A DNA stretch of 53,983 nucleotides from Gammaproteobacteria bacterium (GTDB taxonomy: Bacteria; Pseudomonadota; Gammaproteobacteria; UBA4575): contig JANQOT010000164.1 of the NCBI GenBank assembly GCA_028285655.1, positions 1-53,983 of the forward strand, read 5' to 3'. Shown one piece after another: positions 5,870 through 18,936 of the stretch. How positions within the stretch are numbered: position 1 is the stretch's first letter; every line of letters starts with the position of its first letter. The notes beneath the pieces are model-generated. The model had not been told where the DNA came from. It searched no databases and saw only the letters and a program-made list of their open reading frames with translations. The position numbers and the translations under genes are program-made.

Positions 5870-7003
5870 TCAGGCTGCAGCTTTCATCTGGCGCGCGATC
5901 TCCAATTCTCCTTCGCTCGCCATTTCGCGATCCCATTTCTCAAGTTGTTCGCCGATATATCTTTTCCACACAGGTGGCATTAACGTTAAGGCAAACAAAG
6001 AGAAGTAACCGCGGCCGCAATTTGGAGCACCTACTTCATCCAGTTCCCAAAAATGCGTTTCACCGCGGTCGTGATGATCTGCCTGACGACCGATTTCAAT
6101 AAAGAACCAGCTGGTAAATGCAGTGCTATTGTCCCAACTGTGGCGATAATCTATGGGTTGGCCTTTTTCTCGAATCAATCCGTAATGCTCCAGGTAATTT
6201 AAAGTTTCCAACTCAAAGTTGGAAATCACCCACAGAACGGCCAAACAGCCAACACCTACCCAACCTCCGGCAAACCAAAACAGTGCGACGGTTGGAAAAC
6301 TCATGGCGTAGCCGCGTATCCAGCGGTTTTGCCAGGTCAGAAACGGCAAACCCAATCTCTGTAAACGATTTTTTTCCATCGTAAATAAAAACTTGCTCTG
6401 CCCTAATCCGGACAAAGGTAGATGAGCAAAAACACTGCGGCCGCGAGGCGCGGTTGCAGGATCGTCTTGATGGCCCAATTCCAGATGATGGTTATACACA
6501 TGCGCATAACAAAAATGCGCTTTGCCGCTGAGCGCCATCATCCAGCGCGCGATTACAAAACTGAATCCTTTTGTATGAGCGAGTTCGTGACCGTAAATTA
6601 TGCCGATACCGGCAAAAATTCCGGCAGAAATCGTGGCCCCTAAAAGTTGTGTGCCGGTGATTCCGTCTTGAATCGCTAATCCAAGCAGTGTCGATTCCGC
6701 GACCGGAACACCCGTAGTGAATTGAAACACACGCCAGGCAAGTACAATTTGCAACAAAACAAATGCGCCTAACATGCCGTACATTAAGCCGTTTTGCAGG
6801 CCCGGATTAGCGTAGGTGTTTCCCGCTTCATCGAATCCGGCACCCGGTGTTTGAGTACGGATTAACGTATCCATGATCACTCCGACGCCCAGCAGCACAA
6901 CGCCGCTCCAGACCCAGGGTCCACCCGCAACGATTCCGAAAATTGCGGCCAGAATCAGTAGCGGTGCCGTGCAATACCGAGCATTGATTAGCAGTTTTTT
7001 CAT
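5870..7003 (-). CDS. AlkB-like membrane diiron monooxygenase (alkane/xylene monooxygenase family)
   Basis: HELAHTKG, HVYNHHLELGHQDDPATAPRG, NYLEHYGLIRE, QADHHDRGETHFWEL; strong SD AAAGGAGG before ATG. Confidence 0.85.
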   Translation of the reverse strand: MKKLLINARYCTAPLLILAAIFGIVAGGPWVWSGVVLLGVGVIMDTLIRTQTPGAGFDEAGNTYANPGLQNGLMYGMLGAFVLLQIVLAWRVFQFTTGVPVAESTLLGLAIQDGITGTQLLGATISAGIFAGIGIIYGHELAHTKGFSFVIARWMMALSGKAHFCYAHVYNHHLELGHQDDPATAPRGRSVFAHLPLSGLGQSKFLFTMEKNRLQRLGLPFLTWQNRWIRGYAMSFPTVALFWFAGGWVGVGCLAVLWVISNFELETLNYLEHYGLIREKGQPIDYRHSWDNSTAFTSWFFIEIGRQADHHDRGETHFWELDEVGAPNCGRGYFSLFALTLMPPVWKRYIGEQLEKWDREMASEGELEIARQMKAAA

Positions 7004-7208: not shown

Positions 7209-8240
7209 TCAATCCAGATATATACTTACGCACAATCCCGGGGGGGTGTTTTCGATCTTTATTTTCGCCCCGTGCAGTTTTAATACCGCTTTTACCAGAC
7301 TAAGACCGAGGCCGGAGCCTTCTTTTTGCGTTTCTGATTTATCCCGGTAAAACCGATCAAATACTTTATCGATAGATTCTTCCGGAATTCCGGGACCGTT
7401 ATCGGTAATCGTAATTTTGCGATTATTTCCTGAGTCCGTGATCGCAACCTTTATGTTTCCATTTTCCGGCGTGAATTTAATTGCATTATCCAGAATGTTT
7501 GCGATCACTTGAAAAAACAAATCTCTGTCACCAACGTAATTAATCGGCAAGGTTTCCACTTCTATTGTTTGTTCTTTGTCCTGCGCTAGTGGCGTATAGA
7601 ATGCAATAGCATCAATCACTACTTTTTCTAAATCAAATGACTTAAATTTTGTACTTTGCCGACCGGACTCAATGCTGGAGAGACTCAGCAAGGCATTAAA
7701 TGTTTTCAATAGTCCATCTACTTCCTGAATTAATGCAATCTTTTCTTCCGCACTTTGATCTGATTTCTCCAGTTTATTTCTAAGTCGCGCAAGTGGTGTT
7801 CTCAAATCATGGGCAACTGTATCTGTTATATGCTGTACACCTTCCATGAGAATCTCAATTTTATCCAGCATTTCATTTAATACACCAGACAGATAACTCA
7901 GATCGTCCCAACGTGAATCTATCGTCAATCTTTTGCTTAGGTCGCCCGTTTTAATAATTTCATTTGCAGTATTAGCCATTCGATTTATTCGAGTAACTAC
8001 GAATACGCTTACCAAGTAACCCAAAACTGCCACAAGGAGTAACGAAACGATACTGGCAATACCAAGAGATACTAAAAAACCGTAGTCTAGATAGTTCGGA
8101 TTCTGACGAATCAGAAAGAAAATAGATAAACATAGAGTAATAAGCCCGACCGCAAGTAATATCGCGAACAAAGTCGCTACTTTGAAGCTGGAGCTCTTCC
8201 TGTAATATCTACGAATCTTCAATGATATAGCCTGCGCCAC
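7209..8240 (-). CDS. Sensor histidine kinase (HAMP, HisKA, HATPase)
   Basis: Two TM segments, TVAHDLRTPLARLRNKLE H-box, DNGPGIPEESIDKVFDRFYR, GSGLGLSLVKAV. Confidence 0.93.
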   Translation of the reverse strand: MAQAISLKIRRYYRKSSSFKVATLFAILLAVGLITLCLSIFFLIRQNPNYLDYGFLVSLGIASIVSLLLVAVLGYLVSVFVVTRINRMANTANEIIKTGDLSKRLTIDSRWDDLSYLSGVLNEMLDKIEILMEGVQHITDTVAHDLRTPLARLRNKLEKSDQSAEEKIALIQEVDGLLKTFNALLSLSSIESGRQSTKFKSFDLEKVVIDAIAFYTPLAQDKEQTIEVETLPINYVGDRDLFFQVIANILDNAIKFTPENGNIKVAITDSGNNRKITITDNGPGIPEESIDKVFDRFYRDKSETQKEGSGLGLSLVKAVLKLHGAKIKIENTPPGLCVSIYLD

Positions 8241-8886
8241 GCACAGTTTTAATTAAATACTGCGGCGACTCTTTGTTAATTTTTTGTCTCAGATGACTTA
8301 TATGAACATCAATTACGTTGGTTTGCGGGTCAAAATGATAATCCCACACATATTCCAGTAACATAGTGCGTGTAACTATCTGTCCTTTGTGACGAAGCAA
8401 ATACTCAAGCAATTTGAATTCTGTGGTTTGAATAGGGATTTCTATATCTTCGCGACTAAGTTTTCGCGTCAAAAGATTAAGTTGGATATCTTTTGCGGAT
8501 AAAGTTGTTTCCTTCTCGACTGCCGGCCTGTTTCTTCTATTCAATGCTTCGATACGTGCAATAAGCTCGGAAAAAGCAAAAGGTTTTACCAGATAGTCAT
8601 CTCCGCCCACACGCAATCCTTTTACTCGATCGTCTACCTCTCCGAGTGCACTAAAAATTAGTACCGGAGTTAAATTTTCCGCACCACGAATCGTTTTTAT
8701 AATGGTAAGGCCGTCGACGCCGGGCAACATACGATCCACTAAAATTACATCATATTTTTCACTGGTAGCCAGATATAAACCGTCAGTACCATTAGTTGCA
8801 GCGTCAACCGTGTGTCCCATTTCAATCAGCCCTTTGGTGACGTATTCCAAAAGTTCTGTATCATCTTCTATGCAGAGAATTCGCAT
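8209..8886 (-). CDS. OmpR/PhoB-family response regulator (QseB/PmrA-like)
   Basis: MRILCIEDDTELLEYV, DVILVDRMLPGVDGL, VKPFAFSEL, winged-helix C-terminus; overlaps the kinase start. Confidence 0.95.
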   Translation of the reverse strand: MRILCIEDDTELLEYVTKGLIEMGHTVDAATNGTDGLYLATSEKYDVILVDRMLPGVDGLTIIKTIRGAENLTPVLIFSALGEVDDRVKGLRVGGDDYLVKPFAFSELIARIEALNRRNRPAVEKETTLSAKDIQLNLLTRKLSREDIEIPIQTTEFKLLEYLLRHKGQIVTRTMLLEYVWDYHFDPQTNVIDVHISHLRQKINKESPQYLIKTVRGAGYIIEDS

Positions 8887-8962
8887 GTTTGCTTACGGTG
8901 CTAAATGGTTTGAAATCGTGGGTAATTATGCGGTTCAATCCGCAGCGATTAGATTAAATATT

Positions 8963-8990
8963 CTTAATGTATGCTTAATAAACACTTAAT
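8963..8990 (+). promoter_or_regulatory. Three direct CTTAAT repeats with exact 11-bp periodicity (PmrA/QseB-type operator)
   Basis: CTTAAT at 8963-8968, 8974-8979, 8985-8990 in the divergent region between the response regulator and the 9040 operon. Confidence 0.7.
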
Positions 8991-9039
8991 TGAGTTGCAT
9001 ATATATTAGTCAACATCTACCGTTTTCTCACTAACTTTT

Positions 9040-9597
9040 ATGGATCTTAAAATTTTCAAGGTAATTCAAGCTATTGTATTTGCTACATTTTTTGTTTCTC
9101 CTGCGATTTCGGCCAACGTACTTAGCCCCCTACCCGCCGAAGTAACTCAGCGATGGCATGAATTAGAATACGTTGGACAAGCCAGCCTGAGACGGTTTGG
9201 TTTTCATATCTATGACGCTACTTTGTGGATGGCGTCAAACCGCAATGACGAATCGTATGCAACGACCTTAAGTGCGTTAAGTATTACCTACGCAAAGAAT
9301 ATCCGTGCTAAAAAGCTATTGTCCAGTACAAAAAAGGAATGGAGGAAATTAGGAATCACAGATAAACATCCGACAGACAAGTGGATAAACGAATTACAGG
9401 AAATGTGGCCGGACGTGAAAAAAGGCGATCAACTCATTGTCATTTTTGAACCCGGTGGAAATTCCAGTTTCTATAATAAATATAAAAAACTGGGCACGAT
9501 AGAAGACGCTGATTTTGGTCCCGCTTTTCTGTCAATTTGGCTGCATAAAAATGCGAGTTTCAAAAATAAACGCAAGCAGTTACTGGGAGTGTCATAA
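9040..9597 (+). CDS. Chalcone isomerase-like periplasmic protein
   Basis: Signal peptide; RRFGFHIYDATLWMAS, TYAKNIRAKKLLSSTKKEW, FEPGGNSSFYN, FLSIWL. Confidence 0.8.
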   Translation: MDLKIFKVIQAIVFATFFVSPAISANVLSPLPAEVTQRWHELEYVGQASLRRFGFHIYDATLWMASNRNDESYATTLSALSITYAKNIRAKKLLSSTKKEWRKLGITDKHPTDKWINELQEMWPDVKKGDQLIVIFEPGGNSSFYNKYKKLGTIEDADFGPAFLSIWLHKNASFKNKRKQLLGVS

Positions 9598-10140
9598 ATG
9601 AAAGTTTTATACATATTAATCTCGGTTATTGTTTTAACAACGCTGACTGGATGTGGCACAACTCCATCCGACTACGCAAATACTCAGCCGGCGTTTGATT
9701 TAAAAAAGTTTTTTAGTGGAAACCTGAAAGGCTGGGGACTCGTATCAGACTATCGTGGAAAAGTAATACAGCGATTTACCGTCGATATGGAAGGTCGCTG
9801 GAACGACAATAAAGGAGAGTTATACGAGCTCTTCTCCTATCAAAACGGAGATACGCAAGAACGCACCTGGTTTTTAGAAAAAAAAGAAAACGGCGTTAAC
9901 TTTGGAACTGCAAGCGACGTTGTGGGCGAAGCAGTCGGACAACAAGAAGGATTTGCATTTTACTGGAAGTATGACTTGATTATTAATACAGAAAAGCGTG
10001 AACTAAAAGTGCATTTACAGGATTGGCTATACCAGATCGATCAGGATTCAGTCATTAGTAAAGCAAAAATCAAGAAATTTGGCATTCCGGTAGGAGAAGT
10101 AATCGTATTTATCCTGAAAGAGGAAAAAAATTATGAGTGA
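9598..10140 (+). CDS. DUF3833 lipoprotein
   Basis: Lipobox LTGCG; FDLKKFFSGNLKGWGLVSDYRGKVIQRFTVDMEGRW, typical DUF3833. Confidence 0.88.
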   Translation: MKVLYILISVIVLTTLTGCGTTPSDYANTQPAFDLKKFFSGNLKGWGLVSDYRGKVIQRFTVDMEGRWNDNKGELYELFSYQNGDTQERTWFLEKKENGVNFGTASDVVGEAVGQQEGFAFYWKYDLIINTEKRELKVHLQDWLYQIDQDSVISKAKIKKFGIPVGEVIVFILKEEKNYE

Positions 10141-10558
10141 TGCCACTATTACGCGATTTATTGAAAATATAAATTCATTAAACTCAAATAACGTAAACGA
10201 AGTGTTGCATGATACTTATACGCAACATGTAAACTTCATCGATCCGGTAAAAAATATCAATGGACTTGAAAATCTGACAGAGTATTTTTCGCACTTATAC
10301 AAAAAGGTTAATCACTGTCACTTCGAGATAAACAACTGCTTGTTACACGACAACCAATATTCTCTGGAATGGGTAATGCATTTACAGCATAAAAATTTAT
10401 CCAAAGACAAGCCAATTTCGCTTAATGGTGCATCTTTTATCCAATATAAAAATGGAAAAATACAGTACCATCGCGATTACTATGATCTGGGAGCACTGGT
10501 TTATGAACAGATTCCGTTGCTCGGCACAGTAGTAAAAAAGGTACGCAGCGCAATATAA
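10133..10558 (+). CDS. Nuclear transport factor 2 / SnoaL-like protein
   Basis: NFIDPVKNINGLENLTEYFSHLYKKVNHCHFEI, ISLNGASFIQYKNGKIQYHRDYYDLGALVYEQIPLLG. Confidence 0.8.
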   Translation: MSDATITRFIENINSLNSNNVNEVLHDTYTQHVNFIDPVKNINGLENLTEYFSHLYKKVNHCHFEINNCLLHDNQYSLEWVMHLQHKNLSKDKPISLNGASFIQYKNGKIQYHRDYYDLGALVYEQIPLLGTVVKKVRSAI

Positions 10559-10562
10559 GAAA

Positions 10563-11330
10563 ATGGACTCACATTTCGACAATAAAGTTATTTGGATCAC
10601 TGGTGCTTCTTCGGGTATTGGCAAAGCACTGGCTATTGATTTATCCAAATTAAATTGTAAAGTTTACATAACAGCGCGGTCAGAAGAAAAACTTAATGAA
10701 ATTGTTACACAGTGCGCTAAAGATAACGTTACCGCACTTCCAGGCGATTTGACCGACAAGCAGACTAATATAAAAATATGCGAAGAAATTATGAAAGAAA
10801 GCGGTCACATGGATATCGCAATCTTGAACGCAGGTACCTGCGAATACGTCGATATCGATAATTTCAATAGCGATTTGTTTGAACGTCTCACCAAGGTAAA
10901 TTTTATCAGTATGGTTTATGGAATAGAGGCTTGCCTTCCTCTCTTATATAAGTCACGCCACGCACAACTAATCGGAATGAGCAGCACTGCAGCTTATTTG
11001 GGATTACCACGGTCGGAGGCCTATGGTGCTACCAAGGCTGCGATACGCAATATGTTTGGCGCATTACGTGTGAGTTTATCCGGCAAAGGAATCAGTACTT
11101 CTGTTATTTGTCCTGGTTTCGTTGAAACCGAACTAACGGATCAAAATGATTTCGATATGCCGGCACTGATAACAGCCCAAAAAGCGTCGGAGTACATTCT
11201 TGACGGAATTTCGAAAAAAAAGCAGGAAATTCATTTTCCACGCAAATTTAGCCTCACATTAAAGTTAATCGGTTCATTACCCAATCCCTTGTTGACCTGG
11301 ATTTTACGAAAAACGGTAGTACGCACATGA
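10563..11330 (+). CDS. Short-chain dehydrogenase/reductase
   Basis: WITGASSGIGKALA, NAGT, SSTAAYLGLPRSEAYGATKAA. Confidence 0.92.
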   Translation: MDSHFDNKVIWITGASSGIGKALAIDLSKLNCKVYITARSEEKLNEIVTQCAKDNVTALPGDLTDKQTNIKICEEIMKESGHMDIAILNAGTCEYVDIDNFNSDLFERLTKVNFISMVYGIEACLPLLYKSRHAQLIGMSSTAAYLGLPRSEAYGATKAAIRNMFGALRVSLSGKGISTSVICPGFVETELTDQNDFDMPALITAQKASEYILDGISKKKQEIHFPRKFSLTLKLIGSLPNPLLTWILRKTVVRT

Positions 11331-12604
11331 GAATCGCAATTATTGGCTCCGGAGTATCCGGATTAACGGCAGCACATTTACTGCACAAAGAGCATGACAT
11401 TACTGTATATGAGGCAGCAAATTATATTGGTGGCCATGTAAATACTATTGAAGTTACCGAACAGCAACAAACCGTCTACATCGATACCGGATTTATCGTT
11501 TTCAATAACTGGACCTACCCCAATTTCGAAAAATTAATATCAGAGCTCGATATCACGGCGCAGAACTCGGAGATGAGTTTTTCCACTCGATGTGAAAGCA
11601 CCGGATTCGAATGGTCGGGCAGCAGTTTAAGCACACTCATATTTAATAGTGATAACTGGAATCGAACTATTCCTTATCAGATCCTGTTCGATGTCTTCAG
11701 ATTTAATAAACTTTCAAAAAGTTTTTTGAAAGATAATAATGATTTACTCACGCTTGGTGAGTTTCTGACGATAAACAAATTCAGTAATGCTTTTATAAAG
11801 TACTATATTTTGCCTATGGGTGCAGCGATATGGTCTTCGCATGCCAACCAGATTAAAGAGTATCCTGCGAAAAGTTTTTTGGCGTTCTTTAATAATCATG
11901 GTTTATTAAATATAAAACAACGCCCGCAATGGAAAACCATACAACAAGGGTCATGCAAATATGTACAAGAACTAAGCAAACCGTTTTCTGACAATATTAG
12001 ACTGAATTCTGCCGTACAATCGATAGATCGCACACAGAGAGGCATTGCGATTCACGATGTTAATGGCGATACATGTGTTTACGACCATGTATTTCTTGCA
12101 TGCCATAGTGACCAGGCTCTTAGTATATTAAAAGAACCAACTATTCTGGAAAAAGATACTCTTGCAAATATTAAATATCAGGTAAATTCAGCGGTATTGC
12201 ATACGGACCCGTCGTTAATGCCGAAACGACATAGTTGCTGGTCGTCATGGAATTACTGGGTTCCAAAAAATGATGGCAATGATGTTAAAGTTACGTATTA
12301 CATGAACAGGCTGCAAAATTTGCAATCCGCTCGTAATTACTTTGTTACTTTGAATTTTGACGACCTTATCAAGGACGATAAAATTATCTATAAAACGACT
12401 TATACGCACCCGGTATTTGACTATAATGCCGTTCAAGCACAGCAAAAATTTTCGGAATTAAACGGTACCAATAATACCTGGTACTGTGGAGCATATTGGC
12501 GCAACGGCTTCCACGAAGACGGCGTCTGGAGTGCCATCGAGGCTGTAAGTTTATTCAAGAGCAAAATTAACAATGAAAAGCTGCATCTACAAAGGGCGAG
12601 TTAA
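11327..12604 (+). CDS. FAD-dependent amine-oxidase-type oxidoreductase of the CFA/furan-fatty-acid cluster
   Basis: IAIIGSGVSGLTAAHLLHKEHDITVYEAANYIGGHVNTI; VYIDTGFIVFNNWTYPNFEKL; CGAYWRNGFHEDGVWSAIEA. Confidence 0.92.
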   Translation: MRIAIIGSGVSGLTAAHLLHKEHDITVYEAANYIGGHVNTIEVTEQQQTVYIDTGFIVFNNWTYPNFEKLISELDITAQNSEMSFSTRCESTGFEWSGSSLSTLIFNSDNWNRTIPYQILFDVFRFNKLSKSFLKDNNDLLTLGEFLTINKFSNAFIKYYILPMGAAIWSSHANQIKEYPAKSFLAFFNNHGLLNIKQRPQWKTIQQGSCKYVQELSKPFSDNIRLNSAVQSIDRTQRGIAIHDVNGDTCVYDHVFLACHSDQALSILKEPTILEKDTLANIKYQVNSAVLHTDPSLMPKRHSCWSSWNYWVPKNDGNDVKVTYYMNRLQNLQSARNYFVTLNFDDLIKDDKIIYKTTYTHPVFDYNAVQAQQKFSELNGTNNTWYCGAYWRNGFHEDGVWSAIEAVSLFKSKINNEKLHLQRAS

Positions 12605-13319
12605 TCACAAGCGCACAGCTCCGCGGCAACACGAATTTTCTTATTCGTTGTTTATGATGTACGTAGACCTGGAAGAATTGCCTAGTTTATTCGACTCATT
12701 CGGATTATGGAGTATAGAAAAAAGCAACATCGCTTCCTTTAAGAGAAAAGATCATTTCGGCGACAAAAGTGAAAGCTTGGCGGATTCAGTCCGCAAGCTG
12801 GTACTGGAAGAAACCGGTAATCAAATCACCGGCCCTATCCGCTTGCTAACTCATTTTCGATATTTTGGATACATCTTCAATCCTTTAAGCCTGTATTACT
12901 GCTTCGATCAAGACGACCAAAAAGTAGAGTATATTGTTGCTGAAGTTTCCAATACGCCCTGGAAAGAGATGCATTGTTATGTATTGCGCAACAATGATCC
13001 GGAAAATTCATTTTTTCGAGCTCGACATAAAAAAGAATTTCATGTATCGCCGTTTATGGATTTAAATATGGAGTATCAGTGGAAGCTTGGAATTCCTGAT
13101 GACTCCCTTTGCGTGGAGATTCAAAACCGCGAAAACAACACCAGCATATTTTCCGCAAATATTGTTTTACAAAAATGCCCTATAAATCGTTCGAGTTTAA
13201 ACCAGGTTTTAGTCGGCTACCCTTTGATGACTTTAAAAGTAACCAGTGCTATTCATTTTGAAGCATTTAAACTATGGAGCAAAGGTATCTCATACGTTCC
13301 ACACCCAAGAAATCACTAG
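12573..13319 (+). CDS. DUF1365 protein
   Basis: SCIYKGRVNHKRTAPRQHEFSYSLFMMYVDLEEL, HFRYFGYIFNPLSLYYCFD; overlaps the preceding gene. Confidence 0.92.
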   Translation: MKSCIYKGRVNHKRTAPRQHEFSYSLFMMYVDLEELPSLFDSFGLWSIEKSNIASFKRKDHFGDKSESLADSVRKLVLEETGNQITGPIRLLTHFRYFGYIFNPLSLYYCFDQDDQKVEYIVAEVSNTPWKEMHCYVLRNNDPENSFFRARHKKEFHVSPFMDLNMEYQWKLGIPDDSLCVEIQNRENNTSIFSANIVLQKCPINRSSLNQVLVGYPLMTLKVTSAIHFEAFKLWSKGISYVPHPRNH

Positions 13320-13328
13320 GCAATAAAT

Positions 13329-14597
13329 ATGACGATTATTCCAAAACAGCACGATGATGCTAAAGAAAAAACAAACAAAGGATTGTTTGATCAAATTGCC
13401 ATGTCTATTTTATTTCGTAAATTAGACGCTATACAAACAGGATTCTTGCAAGTTTATTGTGATACCAACATTTACGAGTTTGGCTCTAAAAGTATGAGCA
13501 ATACTTTATGCGCAAAGATTCATATTCATGACATAAGAACGTTCAGAACGATTTTGTTTGGTGGAGAACCAGCCGCCGGCTACACCTATGTGCAAGGGTG
13601 GTGGTCAACAGAAGACTTAATCCAGGTAATACGTCTTTTTACTATTAATCGTTCGGTACTGTTTTCTTTTAAATATGGACTTGCTTATTTGGCCAGATTC
13701 TTTTCATTTTTCACCAAACTAGCGAAGAAAAACAGTCAAAAAGGTTCCAAAAATAATATATGTGCACATTACGATATAGGCAACGACTTATACCGCTTGT
13801 TTCTTGATTCTAAAATGATGTACTCATCCGCAATGTTTACATCAAACCATACCGACCTTGAACGAGCTTCCGAATACAAGCTTAAGATTATATGCGAAAA
13901 ACTTAAACTATCTCCGGGAGATCAAGTATTGGAAATAGGCAGTGGTTGGGGTGGCTTCGCTGTATATGCAGCAGAAAATTATGGTTGCCATATCACTACT
14001 ACAACAATTTCTGATGAACAATATGAGCATACTGAAAAACTAATAGCGAGCAAAAATTTGCAAGACTCTATTCATTTACTCAAAGAAGACTATCGGAATT
14101 TGCGTGGACAGTATGACAAGCTTGTCTCCATTGAGATGATTGAATCAGTTGGGCATGAGTATTTAGACACATACTTTAGCCAGTGCAGCAAGCTACTAAA
14201 ACCAGACGGTATTATGTTGATTCAGGCGATTACTATTTCTGATTACCTATATCAACAATATATTTCCTCTATGGATTTTATAAGAAAATATGTTTTCCCC
14301 GGAGGCAGTTTACCCAGTGTAGCCCGCATGCTCGAAGCTACAACAAATCATACGGACTTAACCCTGTTTCATGATGAAAGCTATGCGTCCAGCTATGCCA
14401 AAACATTGGCTAGCTGGTATCGGCGTTTTATCGCTAATAAGAGCAAAGTAATAGAACTTGGCTATTCGCAATCTTTTATTCGCTTGTGGGAGTATTATTT
14501 AAAATACTGTCAGGCTGGTTTTGAAGAACGCGTAATCGATGTTCATCACTTAGTATTCAAGAAACCGGATAATCGATTCGACTCTATTTATCAGTAA
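13329..14597 (+). CDS. Cyclopropane-fatty-acyl-phospholipid synthase family methyltransferase (CfaB/UfaM-like)
   Basis: AHYDIGNDLYRLFLDSKMMYSSAMF, VLEIGSGWGGFAVYAAENYGCHITTTTIS, SIEMIESVGHEYLDTYF. Confidence 0.93.
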   Translation: MTIIPKQHDDAKEKTNKGLFDQIAMSILFRKLDAIQTGFLQVYCDTNIYEFGSKSMSNTLCAKIHIHDIRTFRTILFGGEPAAGYTYVQGWWSTEDLIQVIRLFTINRSVLFSFKYGLAYLARFFSFFTKLAKKNSQKGSKNNICAHYDIGNDLYRLFLDSKMMYSSAMFTSNHTDLERASEYKLKIICEKLKLSPGDQVLEIGSGWGGFAVYAAENYGCHITTTTISDEQYEHTEKLIASKNLQDSIHLLKEDYRNLRGQYDKLVSIEMIESVGHEYLDTYFSQCSKLLKPDGIMLIQAITISDYLYQQYISSMDFIRKYVFPGGSLPSVARMLEATTNHTDLTLFHDESYASSYAKTLASWYRRFIANKSKVIELGYSQSFIRLWEYYLKYCQAGFEERVIDVHHLVFKKPDNRFDSIYQ

Positions 14598-14608
14598 ATT
14601 CAAACAAG

Positions 14609-15157
14609 GTGATTACGTCTCGACTTAAATTCATTATATTTAATCTCCTGGGCTTGGAAATTACCTGGGCTGCTTGTGCCTACGAAGCTATTAATGATGT
14701 AGAATATCTCGGGGCAGCAGTTGGGTCACTTTATGTACTGCTCCATTTTATTTTCACCAAAACACACTTTGAAGACTTTTGGACTTTAATTATCGTGGCT
14801 GCTCTCGGCATTCTCATAGACAGCCTGAACACCTATTACGGTATACTCGGATTTAATAGTGATCCTGCTCCATTGCTAATACCGATTTGGCTGGTTGTAT
14901 TATGGTTTGTATTTTCACTAATGATTCCGCACAGCCTTTATTGGTTTTCAAAAAATTATTTCATTGCTGCTTTGGCTGGCGGCTTAGTTGGCAGTCTCAC
15001 TTATTTGCTCGGATATAAAATAGGTGCCATTAGTTTGTCGGAACCTTTATTAACCAGTTTTCTCATCTTTTTTCTGGAATGGAGCATCTTGTTTCCGATC
15101 GCTTTACTCATTACGAGTACCTTATTCAGATTGAACAAAAAAGAACAATTGAACTAG
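14609..15157 (+). CDS. DUF2878 membrane protein
   Basis: Polytopic; LGLEITWAACAY, GILIDSLNTYYGILGF, PIWLVVLWFVFSLMIPHSLYW. Confidence 0.85.
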   Translation: MITSRLKFIIFNLLGLEITWAACAYEAINDVEYLGAAVGSLYVLLHFIFTKTHFEDFWTLIIVAALGILIDSLNTYYGILGFNSDPAPLLIPIWLVVLWFVFSLMIPHSLYWFSKNYFIAALAGGLVGSLTYLLGYKIGAISLSEPLLTSFLIFFLEWSILFPIALLITSTLFRLNKKEQLN

Positions 15158-15160
15158 TAC

Positions 15161-15883
15161 TTGATTAAGACGACCGTAGAATACAAGGATGTTGCGTTGA
15201 ACGGACAGGAATTTTTACAAATACAGAAAGAAAAATTATTGAATCACCCACTTTTTCTGGACCCTTATATCTCTACAATCTCTTCATTAAAATTATTTGA
15301 GGTTCCAAAGGCAAAAGAATTCGCTCTTCTGTATTATCCACACATATTAAGAACCAGATTATATCAGGCTAATGCGCTTGGAATTACTCCGGATGAAAAT
15401 ATTCAGTTTGTTTTAGCAGAAATTATTTATGACGAATATGGACTAGGCGATCAAACCAGATCTCATGCTCAACTCTACCGCAACTTTATGAATGCGCTTG
15501 GAATAACTGACGAAGAAATCTTAAAAGAAAACATTATTCCAGAACTTGAAAGTTACATCGATACAATGATGAAACTCACTCAAAGCAATCACTGGTTAGC
15601 GGCGGTAGCTGCCGTGGGCGTAGCCAGCGAACACCCTATACCGAAATATTACGGCCTATTGCTAAATGGATTAAGAAAAGTACCGGGCATACAAGAGCAG
15701 GATCTGGAATTATTTACAGGTCATATAGAACTTGATATCGAACATTCGAAAAAAATCGAAGAAGCTCTTCTGCCATACCTCGATGACAGTAATAATCAAG
15801 ACGAATTTACAAAAGGCCTTAAAATAAATATGAATGCGCGCAGGATATTTCATAATGGATTATATAAAGCGATTTTTAAGTAG
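15161..15883 (+). CDS. Heme-oxygenase-like diiron oxidase/oxygenase (HDO; iron-containing redox enzyme family)
   Basis: LAEIIYDEYGLGDQTRSHAQLYRNFMNALG, VASEHPIPKYYGLL, HIELDIEHSKKIEEAL: the E, H, E, H/D/H metal-ligand pattern. TTG start 3 bp after the DUF2878 stop. Confidence 0.75.
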   Translation: MIKTTVEYKDVALNGQEFLQIQKEKLLNHPLFLDPYISTISSLKLFEVPKAKEFALLYYPHILRTRLYQANALGITPDENIQFVLAEIIYDEYGLGDQTRSHAQLYRNFMNALGITDEEILKENIIPELESYIDTMMKLTQSNHWLAAVAAVGVASEHPIPKYYGLLLNGLRKVPGIQEQDLELFTGHIELDIEHSKKIEEALLPYLDDSNNQDEFTKGLKINMNARRIFHNGLYKAIFK

Positions 15884-15922: not shown

Positions 15923-16642
15923 TTAATGCTCCCACATTGTACGAATATTGCTTTTTTCTTGCCTTATTTTACTGCCGGTAAGTCGGTCCCACAAATGAAT
16001 ACCAACCATCACTTCTATATGAGTTGTGGGCACCAGAAATTTATCCAATGACTTGCGAGAGGATTCATGCGGCATGACAAATGACCACATATGCAATGCT
16101 CCGCTTTTACGTTCAGCCAATACAGACTTAAAAAACAAATGTGGAACCGGAAGCTTGATGGGGCTATTGTCTGACGTTTCAATTGTTTCAATAACCAGAT
16201 CAAAATCAAAAATAGGTCCGCTTATTACATACACTTCATAGACATCTTCCAAATTATTTAATGTTCGCACAGCGGCCTCCAGCCGCTTCCAGACACCGCG
16301 GTTAAATCCCCTCTCCTGTGGACACATGTTTGAAAGTAGAAACGTCTCGCTATCCTGTAACTCTTCTTCATTCTGGTTCGCACTTGCTACCAAATGTCCT
16401 CGATCAAATCCGGAGCCTTCATACTGGGCTTTGTCTACTCGAAACAATTCTGGAATACGAAAATCGGATCGAAAATTTTCGGAACGTTCGACATCTACCA
16501 TTCCCCGATCGACAATTTCCAATGCCCACTTTGTCTGCCGATAGTAGTAGGAATACCCGACGACATAATGTCGATTGATCAAAATCTGATCTGCAACCGG
16601 CATACCATACCTCGCTTCCGACCATTGGCTTGGTTCAAACAT
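15923..16642 (-). CDS. DNA/RNA non-specific endonuclease (NUC1 family)
   Basis: SGFDRGHLVASANQN catalytic DRGH; LLSNMCPQERGFNRGVWKRLE. Confidence 0.92.
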   Translation of the reverse strand: MFEPSQWSEARYGMPVADQILINRHYVVGYSYYYRQTKWALEIVDRGMVDVERSENFRSDFRIPELFRVDKAQYEGSGFDRGHLVASANQNEEELQDSETFLLSNMCPQERGFNRGVWKRLEAAVRTLNNLEDVYEVYVISGPIFDFDLVIETIETSDNSPIKLPVPHLFFKSVLAERKSGALHMWSFVMPHESSRKSLDKFLVPTTHIEVMVGIHLWDRLTGSKIRQEKSNIRTMWEH

Positions 16643-17134: not shown

Positions 17135-17665
17135 TTAGTTTTTGACGGGATATTTGCTTAATTTGCGCTGCAATGATCTTCTATGCATACCCAATGCACG
17201 TGCAGCGGCGGACAAATTTCCATTATTTTCTATCAAAACTTTTTGAATATGCTCCCACTCAAGTCGCTTTAACGACAATGGGTTGGTAGCCAATGTTTGA
17301 TCCGACTGTCCCTTGTCTCTGAAAAATGCCTGGAATATTTCTCTACTGCTTACCGGTTTGGTCAAATAGTGGATAGCACCCAGCTTAATTGCCTCTACCG
17401 CAGTTGCGATACTTGCGTACCCGGTAAGTACAACAATTTTTGATTTATTATTAAGCTGCTTTAAGAACGGAATAACCTCCAAACCGGACTCCGATCCCAG
17501 TTTTAAATCCACAATTGCAAAGTTTGGCGAAAACTCTCGAGCAGCTTGTCTGGCACTTTCAATATCGTGCGCAATTATTGCGCTGAAGCCTTTTTTCTCC
17601 ATACTACTGCTAAGGGCAGAAGCAAATACTTCGTCGTCTTCGACAATTAAGAGCTGATTATTCAT
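17135..17665 (-). CDS. regA: RegA/PrrA/ActR-type response regulator
   Basis: Receiver domain plus Fis-type HTH NNGNLSAAARALGMHRRSLQRKLSKYPVK; adjacent to a RegB-type kinase. Confidence 0.88.
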   Translation of the reverse strand: MNNQLLIVEDDEVFASALSSSMEKKGFSAIIAHDIESARQAAREFSPNFAIVDLKLGSESGLEVIPFLKQLNNKSKIVVLTGYASIATAVEAIKLGAIHYLTKPVSSREIFQAFFRDKGQSDQTLATNPLSLKRLEWEHIQKVLIENNGNLSAAARALGMHRRSLQRKLSKYPVKN

Positions 17666-18936
17666 GAAACTGCCAAGGCATTTATGGGTAGAGAAATTGT
17701 AGTTTGCAAACCACCTTCAGAACGATTTTTAAGAACCACGCTTCCGCCAAACCGTCGAATAATTCCATAAGACAGGAATAAACCCAATCCCAGTCCTTTT
17801 GAATCTGAAAATGGCTGCTGACCTGCTTTACTGCTATCGTTCATTGTAAGTCCCGGCCCTTTATCCGACACCACCAACTGAAGCTCGTCGGTGTTAAAAA
17901 TAGTCTCGCACGATACATAGGTCGGCGAAGCATCTGCTGCATTATCGAGAATATTCTTAATAGCTTGTTGCAAGGATTTTTCCGATAAGATTTTTGGTCC
18001 GGTAATATCGTTTTGAATATATGTTTTTAGGTTTACGTTTGGACGTGTCTGCTGCCAATTCTGGATAATATCCTGAATAAATTCTTCAATTCTCATAGGT
18101 TCTCCATTTTCCAGCGGAGCAGACCCAACCGAAGCCGACAGAGTTGAAAGAGCTTCTTTGCAACGCTTAATTTGAATCTGCAAATCCTGTAGTTGCGACC
18201 GACGGGAATTTTTATCGTCTTCATCGCTGATATTCTCCGATATAAGCTGCATAGCCCCTAATGGTGTCCCCAATTCATGCGCAGTACTTGCCGCAAGTGC
18301 TCCAAGTTTAATTAGCTGTTCGTCCTTATAGGCTTCTGCTCTTTTCTCAATCAGTTCTTTTTGTTGTCGTTGTATAATTCGTCCCATTCTGACGACAAAA
18401 AATGCCACCAGCATTGCACTTACCGCAAACCCCAGCCACATGCCCAATACATGAATATTAAAATTGTGCGCATGAAACGTATGCTCACTCATTGGCGTAA
18501 TTACCCAGACAAGCAAGCTGTAGCAGCTAAACGTAATCGCGACAATAATCCAGGTAAAAATAGCGGGCAATGTAATCGCAGATATAGTAAGTGGTATCAG
18601 GTATAAGGAAACAAACGGGTTGGCCCCACCTTCTGAATACGCCAGCAGCACAGTGAGTATAAAAATATCGACTAAAAGATGTATAAAGAATTCCCACAAA
18701 GATATTTCGCGACTATTTGACAACAGAAAAATAGTGGCGCAGGTAATAAGCGTATAAATTCCAATCCAGATAATTAATTTTCCAACAGGTAATGGGATTT
18801 TTAAAAAATATACCGCCATTAAAATAGCCGTCAACTGCCCGGCAATTGCAAATCCACGCAGCCAAATCAATAGGCGCAGATTCGCCCGATAGCTGCAATC
18901 GTATAATTTATTACTATTCAAGCCAGATTTATTCAT
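17662..18936 (-). CDS. regB: RegB/PrrB-type redox sensor histidine kinase
   Basis: Six-TM N-terminus with quinone-binding motif GGANPF (GGXXNPF), H-box STAHELGTPLGAM, and Cys in IKRCKEALSTLS at the RegB redox-Cys position. Confidence 0.9.
   Translation of the reverse strand: MNKSGLNSNKLYDCSYRANLRLLIWLRGFAIAGQLTAILMAVYFLKIPLPVGKLIIWIGIYTLITCATIFLLSNSREISLWEFFIHLLVDIFILTVLLAYSEGGANPFVSLYLIPLTISAITLPAIFTWIIVAITFSCYSLLVWVITPMSEHTFHAHNFNIHVLGMWLGFAVSAMLVAFFVVRMGRIIQRQQKELIEKRAEAYKDEQLIKLGALAASTAHELGTPLGAMQLISENISDEDDKNSRRSQLQDLQIQIKRCKEALSTLSASVGSAPLENGEPMRIEEFIQDIIQNWQQTRPNVNLKTYIQNDITGPKILSEKSLQQAIKNILDNAADASPTYVSCETIFNTDELQLVVSDKGPGLTMNDSSKAGQQPFSDSKGLGLGLFLSYGIIRRFGGSVVLKNRSEGGLQTTISLPINALAVS

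Follow-up and report, generated by a model that had tools for sequence, protein, structure and literature searches.

Gene content of the locus

The DNA analyzed (the window) is positions 1-53,983 of contig JANQOT010000164.1 in assembly GCA_028285655.1, from an uncultured gammaproteobacterium of the UBA4575 lineage. It carries a run of nine plus-strand genes that an earlier note on this DNA had described as a fatty-acid-modification operon spanning 8963-15883, ending in a gene for a heme-oxygenase-like diiron oxidase/oxygenase (HDO) and accompanied by a divergent two-component system. All nine open reading frames have profile matches to the families named there, and the OmpR-type regulator and its kinase lie divergently on the minus strand as claimed (Table 1). 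The end of the proposed span is correct, while its first gene begins at 9040, with 8963-9039 being promoter DNA. Tight packing was found through DUF2878, with overlaps of up to 32 bp and gaps of at most 11 bp, but not for the HDO gene. Its homologues begin near an in-frame TTG at 15197 that has AAGGA 7 nt upstream, and this is probably the start, the TTG at 15161 being doubtful; the gap after DUF2878 then becomes about 39 bp instead of 3. We consider it likely that the locus is a ufa-type furan-fatty-acid operon controlled by the divergent pair through a 17-bp intergenic element, and that the HDO gene is a late arrival at its 3′ end.

Table 1. Features of the ufa-type locus and its divergent regulatory pair (window coordinates)
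Feature	Position	Strand	E-value	Remarks
Histidine kinase	7209-8240	-		343 aa; two N-terminal transmembrane segments, HAMP, HisKA, HATPase_c; divergent from operon
OmpR/PhoB-type response regulator	8209-8886	-		225 aa; divergent from operon
17-bp element ATTAAATATTCTTAATG, consensus ATTAMAWAWWYTTAATR	8953-8969	+		Between the divergent transcripts; candidate regulator-binding site
Three TTAAT direct repeats	8964-8990	+		10-11 bp period; just upstream of/overlapping promoter-like match 8979-9007
Chalcone_3 (chalcone isomerase-like)	9040-9597	+	6.6e-15	Hydrophobic N-terminus, read by eye in the translation, suggests export
DUF3833	9598-10140	+	1.2e-57	Lipoprotein-like N-terminus with LTGC lipobox (by eye)
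SnoaL-like (SnoaL_2)	10133-10558	+	3e-11	
Short-chain dehydrogenase/reductase (SDR)	10563-11330	+	2.6e-42	
Flavin adenine dinucleotide (FAD) oxidoreductase, amine-oxidase type	11327-12604	+	1.2e-18	UfaD-like (methyl-fatty-acyl desaturase step)
DUF1365	12573-13319	+	1.1e-79	UfaO-like (O2-dependent furan-forming step)
CMAS-family S-adenosylmethionine (SAM) methyltransferase	13329-14597	+	4.1e-86	UfaM-like
DUF2878 membrane protein	14609-15157	+	5.2e-33	
Haem_oxygenas_2/HDO	15197-15883	+	1e-28	228 aa; revised TTG start

A probable furan-fatty-acid gene core

The passages of PMC7380195 on R. sphaeroides and R. palustris describe three proteins as necessary and sufficient for furan fatty acids: the SAM methyltransferase UfaM, the nicotinamide adenine dinucleotide (NAD)- and FAD-binding, phytoene-desaturase-like desaturase UfaD, and UfaO, which contains DUF1365 and adds O2-derived oxygen. 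A gene resembling each is present in the window. The DUF1365 protein scores 267.8 bits against PF07103 (cut-off 25), and a sequence search found no solved relative for it. The FAD protein matches Amino_oxidase and NAD_binding_8 and, weakly, phytoene desaturase models, while the methyltransferase scores 289 bits with the CMAS model and 270 with the CFA model, below the cut-off of 400 for the latter. In a class sample of 100 gammaproteobacterial DUF1365 loci (L067-L166), all outside the order of the window genome, the FAD gene accompanies DUF1365 in every one and the CMAS gene in 96, which bears out the earlier description of a recurrent cluster for methylated or furan fatty acids.

Several chemistries occur within the CMAS family, and the closest solved structure to the window protein is that of E. 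coli cyclopropane fatty acid (CFA) synthase, so that the cluster might instead make cyclopropane or 10-methyl fatty acids and not be a furan pathway at all. The synthesis of 10-methyl fatty acids also employs an FAD partner (TmsA/TmsB), which we counted in favor of such a product. Aligned to the E. coli enzyme, whose bicarbonate site we take to be C139/E239/H266/Y317, the window protein has S167, E272, Q299 and Y356 at these positions; the replacement of Cys by Ser and of His by Gln sets it apart from the cyclopropane synthase site. Gln is found at the His position in 104 of 106 cluster-linked CMAS proteins, whereas His persists in all but one of the 28 second copies at these loci. Because of this site and its distribution, the window protein is read as UfaM-type. 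DUF1365 together with the FAD and CMAS genes in nearly all loci also argues against a non-furan product, as does Halomonas, in which ufaD, ufaO and ufaM are consecutive and the ufaM gene yields the furan precursor 11-methyl-octadec-12-enoate in E. coli (PMC12089945). We regard a cyclopropane or 10-methyl product as quite improbable. The Gln-for-His exchange is a possible marker that would give a simple genome-level separation of the furan-type methyltransferase from cyclopropane synthases.

A divergent two-component pair at the cluster

The transmembrane segments of the kinase enclose only about 9 residues, counted by eye from the translation, and kinases with such a short loop are thought to sense the membrane. 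We sampled the order with 19 genomes of one family, the window genome being G000. Kinase orthologues with 59-62% identity lie beside the cluster in G003, G004, G007, G008 and G009, with a further copy in G001 on a facing contig end, and regulator orthologues (74-77% identity) occupy the same divergent position. Pair and cluster are arranged divergently in G000 and in the first five of these genomes, and the same arrangement spans two contig ends in G001. The consensus ATTAMAWAWWYTTAATR is matched exactly in the intergenic region of all seven loci with the pair, G001 included, a count weakened by the derivation of the element from six of these sequences, only that of G001 being independent. Clusters in G006, G012 and G017 have neither pair nor element, and neither was seen in G011, where the contig ends near the first cluster genes. 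Across the genomes of the order the element is rare; outside G011, its further matches fall within coding sequences or next to unrelated ones, save for one on contig C139 of G001, which belongs to the opposite end of that cluster locus. TTAAT-like repeats are also present in G001, G003 and G004; the count of promoter matches is not above chance.

As the earlier note had observed, no extracytoplasmic function (ECF) sigma/ChrR pair is present at the locus, where the OmpR-type pair takes its place; proteins with Cupin_7 domains are encoded at other sites of the genome only. Most genomes of the order encode a protein of roughly 237 aa that has two such ChrR-like domains (own-genome copy G000:C253:10346-10972), and near eight examined copies no ECF sigma gene was seen, save for a weak match in G005. 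Within the same order, the cluster of G017 has a classical ECF sigma/ChrR pair. In the class sample, 17 of the 100 DUF1365 loci are flanked by an OmpR-type pair and 13 by ECF/ChrR, with no locus having both, so two-component control is a recurrent alternative. OmpR-type pairs number 17 per 476 kb beside ufa clusters versus 5 per 734 kb further away. The proposal of a different signal input agrees with the conserved association of pair and cluster within the order and with the dedicated element.

Furan fatty acids are membrane antioxidants that have been studied under ECF/ChrR singlet-oxygen control in phototrophic alphaproteobacteria. We found no description of two-component control of these lipids in an open-access library of papers. 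The same gene set in many gammaproteobacteria, with about one in six sampled loci beside an OmpR-type pair and none beside both kinds of regulator, suggests that furan lipids respond to cues different from singlet oxygen, and the 17-bp site is a concrete target for testing. The cluster itself is already known, and its regulatory form is a recurrent variant.

Several further points weigh against a furan operon under one conserved regulatory system. The CFA Cys is retained in 15 of the 106 cluster CMAS proteins, the Gln/His signature is a correlation and not a proven determinant, and the UfaM-type assignment was made by comparison with E. coli CFA synthase and among the sampled CMAS copies. According to the passages of PMC7380195, R. 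sphaeroides can make the furan product without RSP1089, RSP1088 and RSP1087, which belong to its ufaD-ufaO operon. RSP1089 (402 aa, following ufaO) is of a family that these passages do not state; if it is a methyltransferase, adjacency to ufaD and ufaO is no proof of a UfaM role. The class-sample regulators share no more than about 29-46% identity with that of the window, which does not show one orthologous system, so these pairs may reflect several recruitments.

In g2 genomes, the kinase gene is followed by one for a protein of 246-255 aa (L013 9844-10584, minus strand; L037 15551-16300, plus; L168 4482-5249, minus), which is not found in the window and had no Pfam match in the two copies tested; after it comes a DUF2452-like gene or HDO. 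Other neighbors in the window include a RegB/RegA-like redox two-component pair at 17135-18936 on the minus strand (220 bits with the ActS/PrrB/RegB model, under the cut-off of 350) and a minus-strand gene at 15923-16642, convergent with HDO, that resembles DNA/RNA non-specific endonucleases by eye and has no NCBIfam match. An AlkB-like membrane fatty acid desaturase/hydroxylase gene (5870-7003, minus strand) adjoins the kinase and has a counterpart near the G004 cluster (L013 6791-7933) with 77% identity. Two to four copies of this family are common among genomes of the order, which suggests hydrocarbon use; because the family is multi-copy, adjacency is weak evidence, and we did not retain the gene as a member of the system.

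The terminal HDO gene and comparison with known systems

The AlphaFold2 model of the HDO protein (predicted local distance difference test, pLDDT, 96.7) has CADD, HrmI, PqqC, BesC and FlcD as its best Foldseek matches, with TM-scores of about 0.7-0.87 to solved proteins of the heme-oxygenase-like fold. UndA is a weaker match (TM-score 0.70-0.73, 17% identity), with no sequence match at E 0.01. E80, H90, E145, H176, D180 and H183 are invariant in 16 homologues, and three His plus three carboxylates (3H/3C) is the ligand set given for the HDO superfamily in the passages of PMC13108848. By its predicted fold and ligands, the product of 15197-15883 is a genuine HDO, which supports the earlier identification.

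CADD and related 4-aminobenzoate synthases are the best PDB matches by both sequence and fold, which raises the question of whether the protein is a self-sacrificing 4-aminobenzoate synthase that is merely located here. In CADD, the side chains of Tyr27 and Lys152 are consumed to make 4-aminobenzoate (passages of PMC13108848). The corresponding columns contain no Tyr and no Lys in the 16 homologues; a one-column shift is possible in an alignment at 22% identity, and the neighboring column is also without a conserved Tyr. The NCBIfam CADD model TIGR04305 scores 63.5 bits against a cut-off of 200, and pabB is above its cut-off in 18 of the 19 genomes of the order, including the window genome. 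With the sacrificial residues missing and pabB this widespread, we rejected this function as hardly credible.

The earlier note had linked the HDO to an extra oxidative step within a variant lipid-modification pathway. As a pathway member, it might oxidize or cleave the methylated or furan chain, or remove chains left damaged once an oxidant has reacted with the furan. UndA, the founding HDO, acts on fatty acids (PMC13108848, in the passages on that enzyme). The shared bidirectional promoter would also drive an HDO gene in two lineages that belong to separate halves of the family: in the window as the last gene of the ufa operon, and in G004 (L013) as the last gene of the divergent regulator-kinase-246-aa operon, G004 being the only other genome of the order with HDO near the cluster. 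Furthermore, DUF1365 is present in nine of nine HDO-containing genomes of the order versus 2 of the other 10; the complete genome of G010 has neither, while its close relative G008 has both. Correlated loss of HDO and cluster is only suggested by these counts, because the species tree leaves few independent events.

Gene placement argues the other way. The earlier note had held that absence of HDO beside the cluster in all relatives would speak against the step, and absence was found nearly throughout, with G004 as the exception. HDO is not beside the cluster in G003, G006, G007, G008, G011 and G012, and in G008, whose genome is complete, some 300 kb separate the two. The G009 copy is truncated at the end of a contig and has the same neighbor as in G008, and G001 has kept the cluster without HDO. 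None of the 100 class-sample loci has HDO beside DUF1365. Among the 369 genomes of the class sample, the two families occur together in 20 versus about 28 expected by chance, sharing one locus only in the window. Close HDO homologues outside the order include those of Thiothrix, a Rhodocyclaceae and Hydrogenophilus, and DUF1365 was not found in five of the nine such genomes. The 17-bp element was not found upstream of HDO in other genomes, including the unlinked HDO loci of those with the two-component pair, and the known oxygen step is already supplied by UfaO. HDO is thus rejected as a standard cluster member. Its neighbors, examined for hints of its function, vary from one locus to the next with few exceptions (DnaJ, nitrite/sulphite reductase, HlyD, BrkB, ArsR-rhodanese, alcohol dehydrogenase-peroxiredoxin). 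In the HDO tree, sequences group broadly by genus, consistent with a gene inherited within the family and relocated. The proposed extra step was not upheld and is unproven; we judge pathway membership unlikely, and a slightly lower likelihood still attaches to a dedicated tailoring or repair oxidase of furan or methyl-branched membrane lipids, recruited to the regulon of a two-component system that senses the membrane and took over from the singlet-oxygen ECF/ChrR switch.

The sequences show the gene set, the UfaM-type residues, the conserved pair with its element, the fold and ligands of HDO and its changing location; we infer the product and the signal, as well as regulator binding at the element and the co-transcription of HDO. 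In the most likely scheme, UfaM would methylate a cis-vaccenoyl-type chain in a phospholipid, UfaD would desaturate the methylated chain to a methyl-diene, and UfaO would insert O2-derived oxygen and close the furan ring, giving a methylated furan fatty acid in the phospholipid. The DUF3833, chalcone-isomerase-like, SnoaL, SDR and DUF2878 proteins would be accessory. The kinase/regulator pair would set transcription by way of the 17-bp element in the intergenic region between the two operons, standing in for the ECF sigma/ChrR singlet-oxygen switch; with so little of the kinase lying outside the membrane, its signal is probably the condition of the membrane. The HDO would be a passenger or late recruit, a family-inherited, mostly free-standing diiron oxidase that moved to the 3′ end of the operon in this lineage, where it would fall under the same promoter.

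The window protein shares the seven-helix fold and the 3H/3C set with the HDO superfamily (UndA, BesC, CADD, HrmI, FlcD), yet it is only about 10-23% identical to solved members and lacks the sacrificial Tyr and Lys of CADD. With the ufa systems of R. sphaeroides (RSP2144, RSP1091, RSP1090), R. palustris (RPA2569-2571) and Halomonas YLGW01 (ufaM-ufaD-ufaO), the locus has the FAD, DUF1365 and CMAS genes in common, and they are adjacent to one another, an arrangement also known from R. palustris and Halomonas. It differs from these published systems in its putative OmpR-type control and in the additional Chalcone_3, SnoaL, DUF2878 and terminal HDO genes. The ECF/ChrR-type cluster of G017 (L045) shares FAD, DUF1365, DUF3833, SDR and CMAS with the window; there, the sigma/ChrR pair is divergent and a major facilitator superfamily gene is present, whereas the window has the kinase/regulator pair and, instead of the transporter-family gene, DUF2878 and SnoaL.

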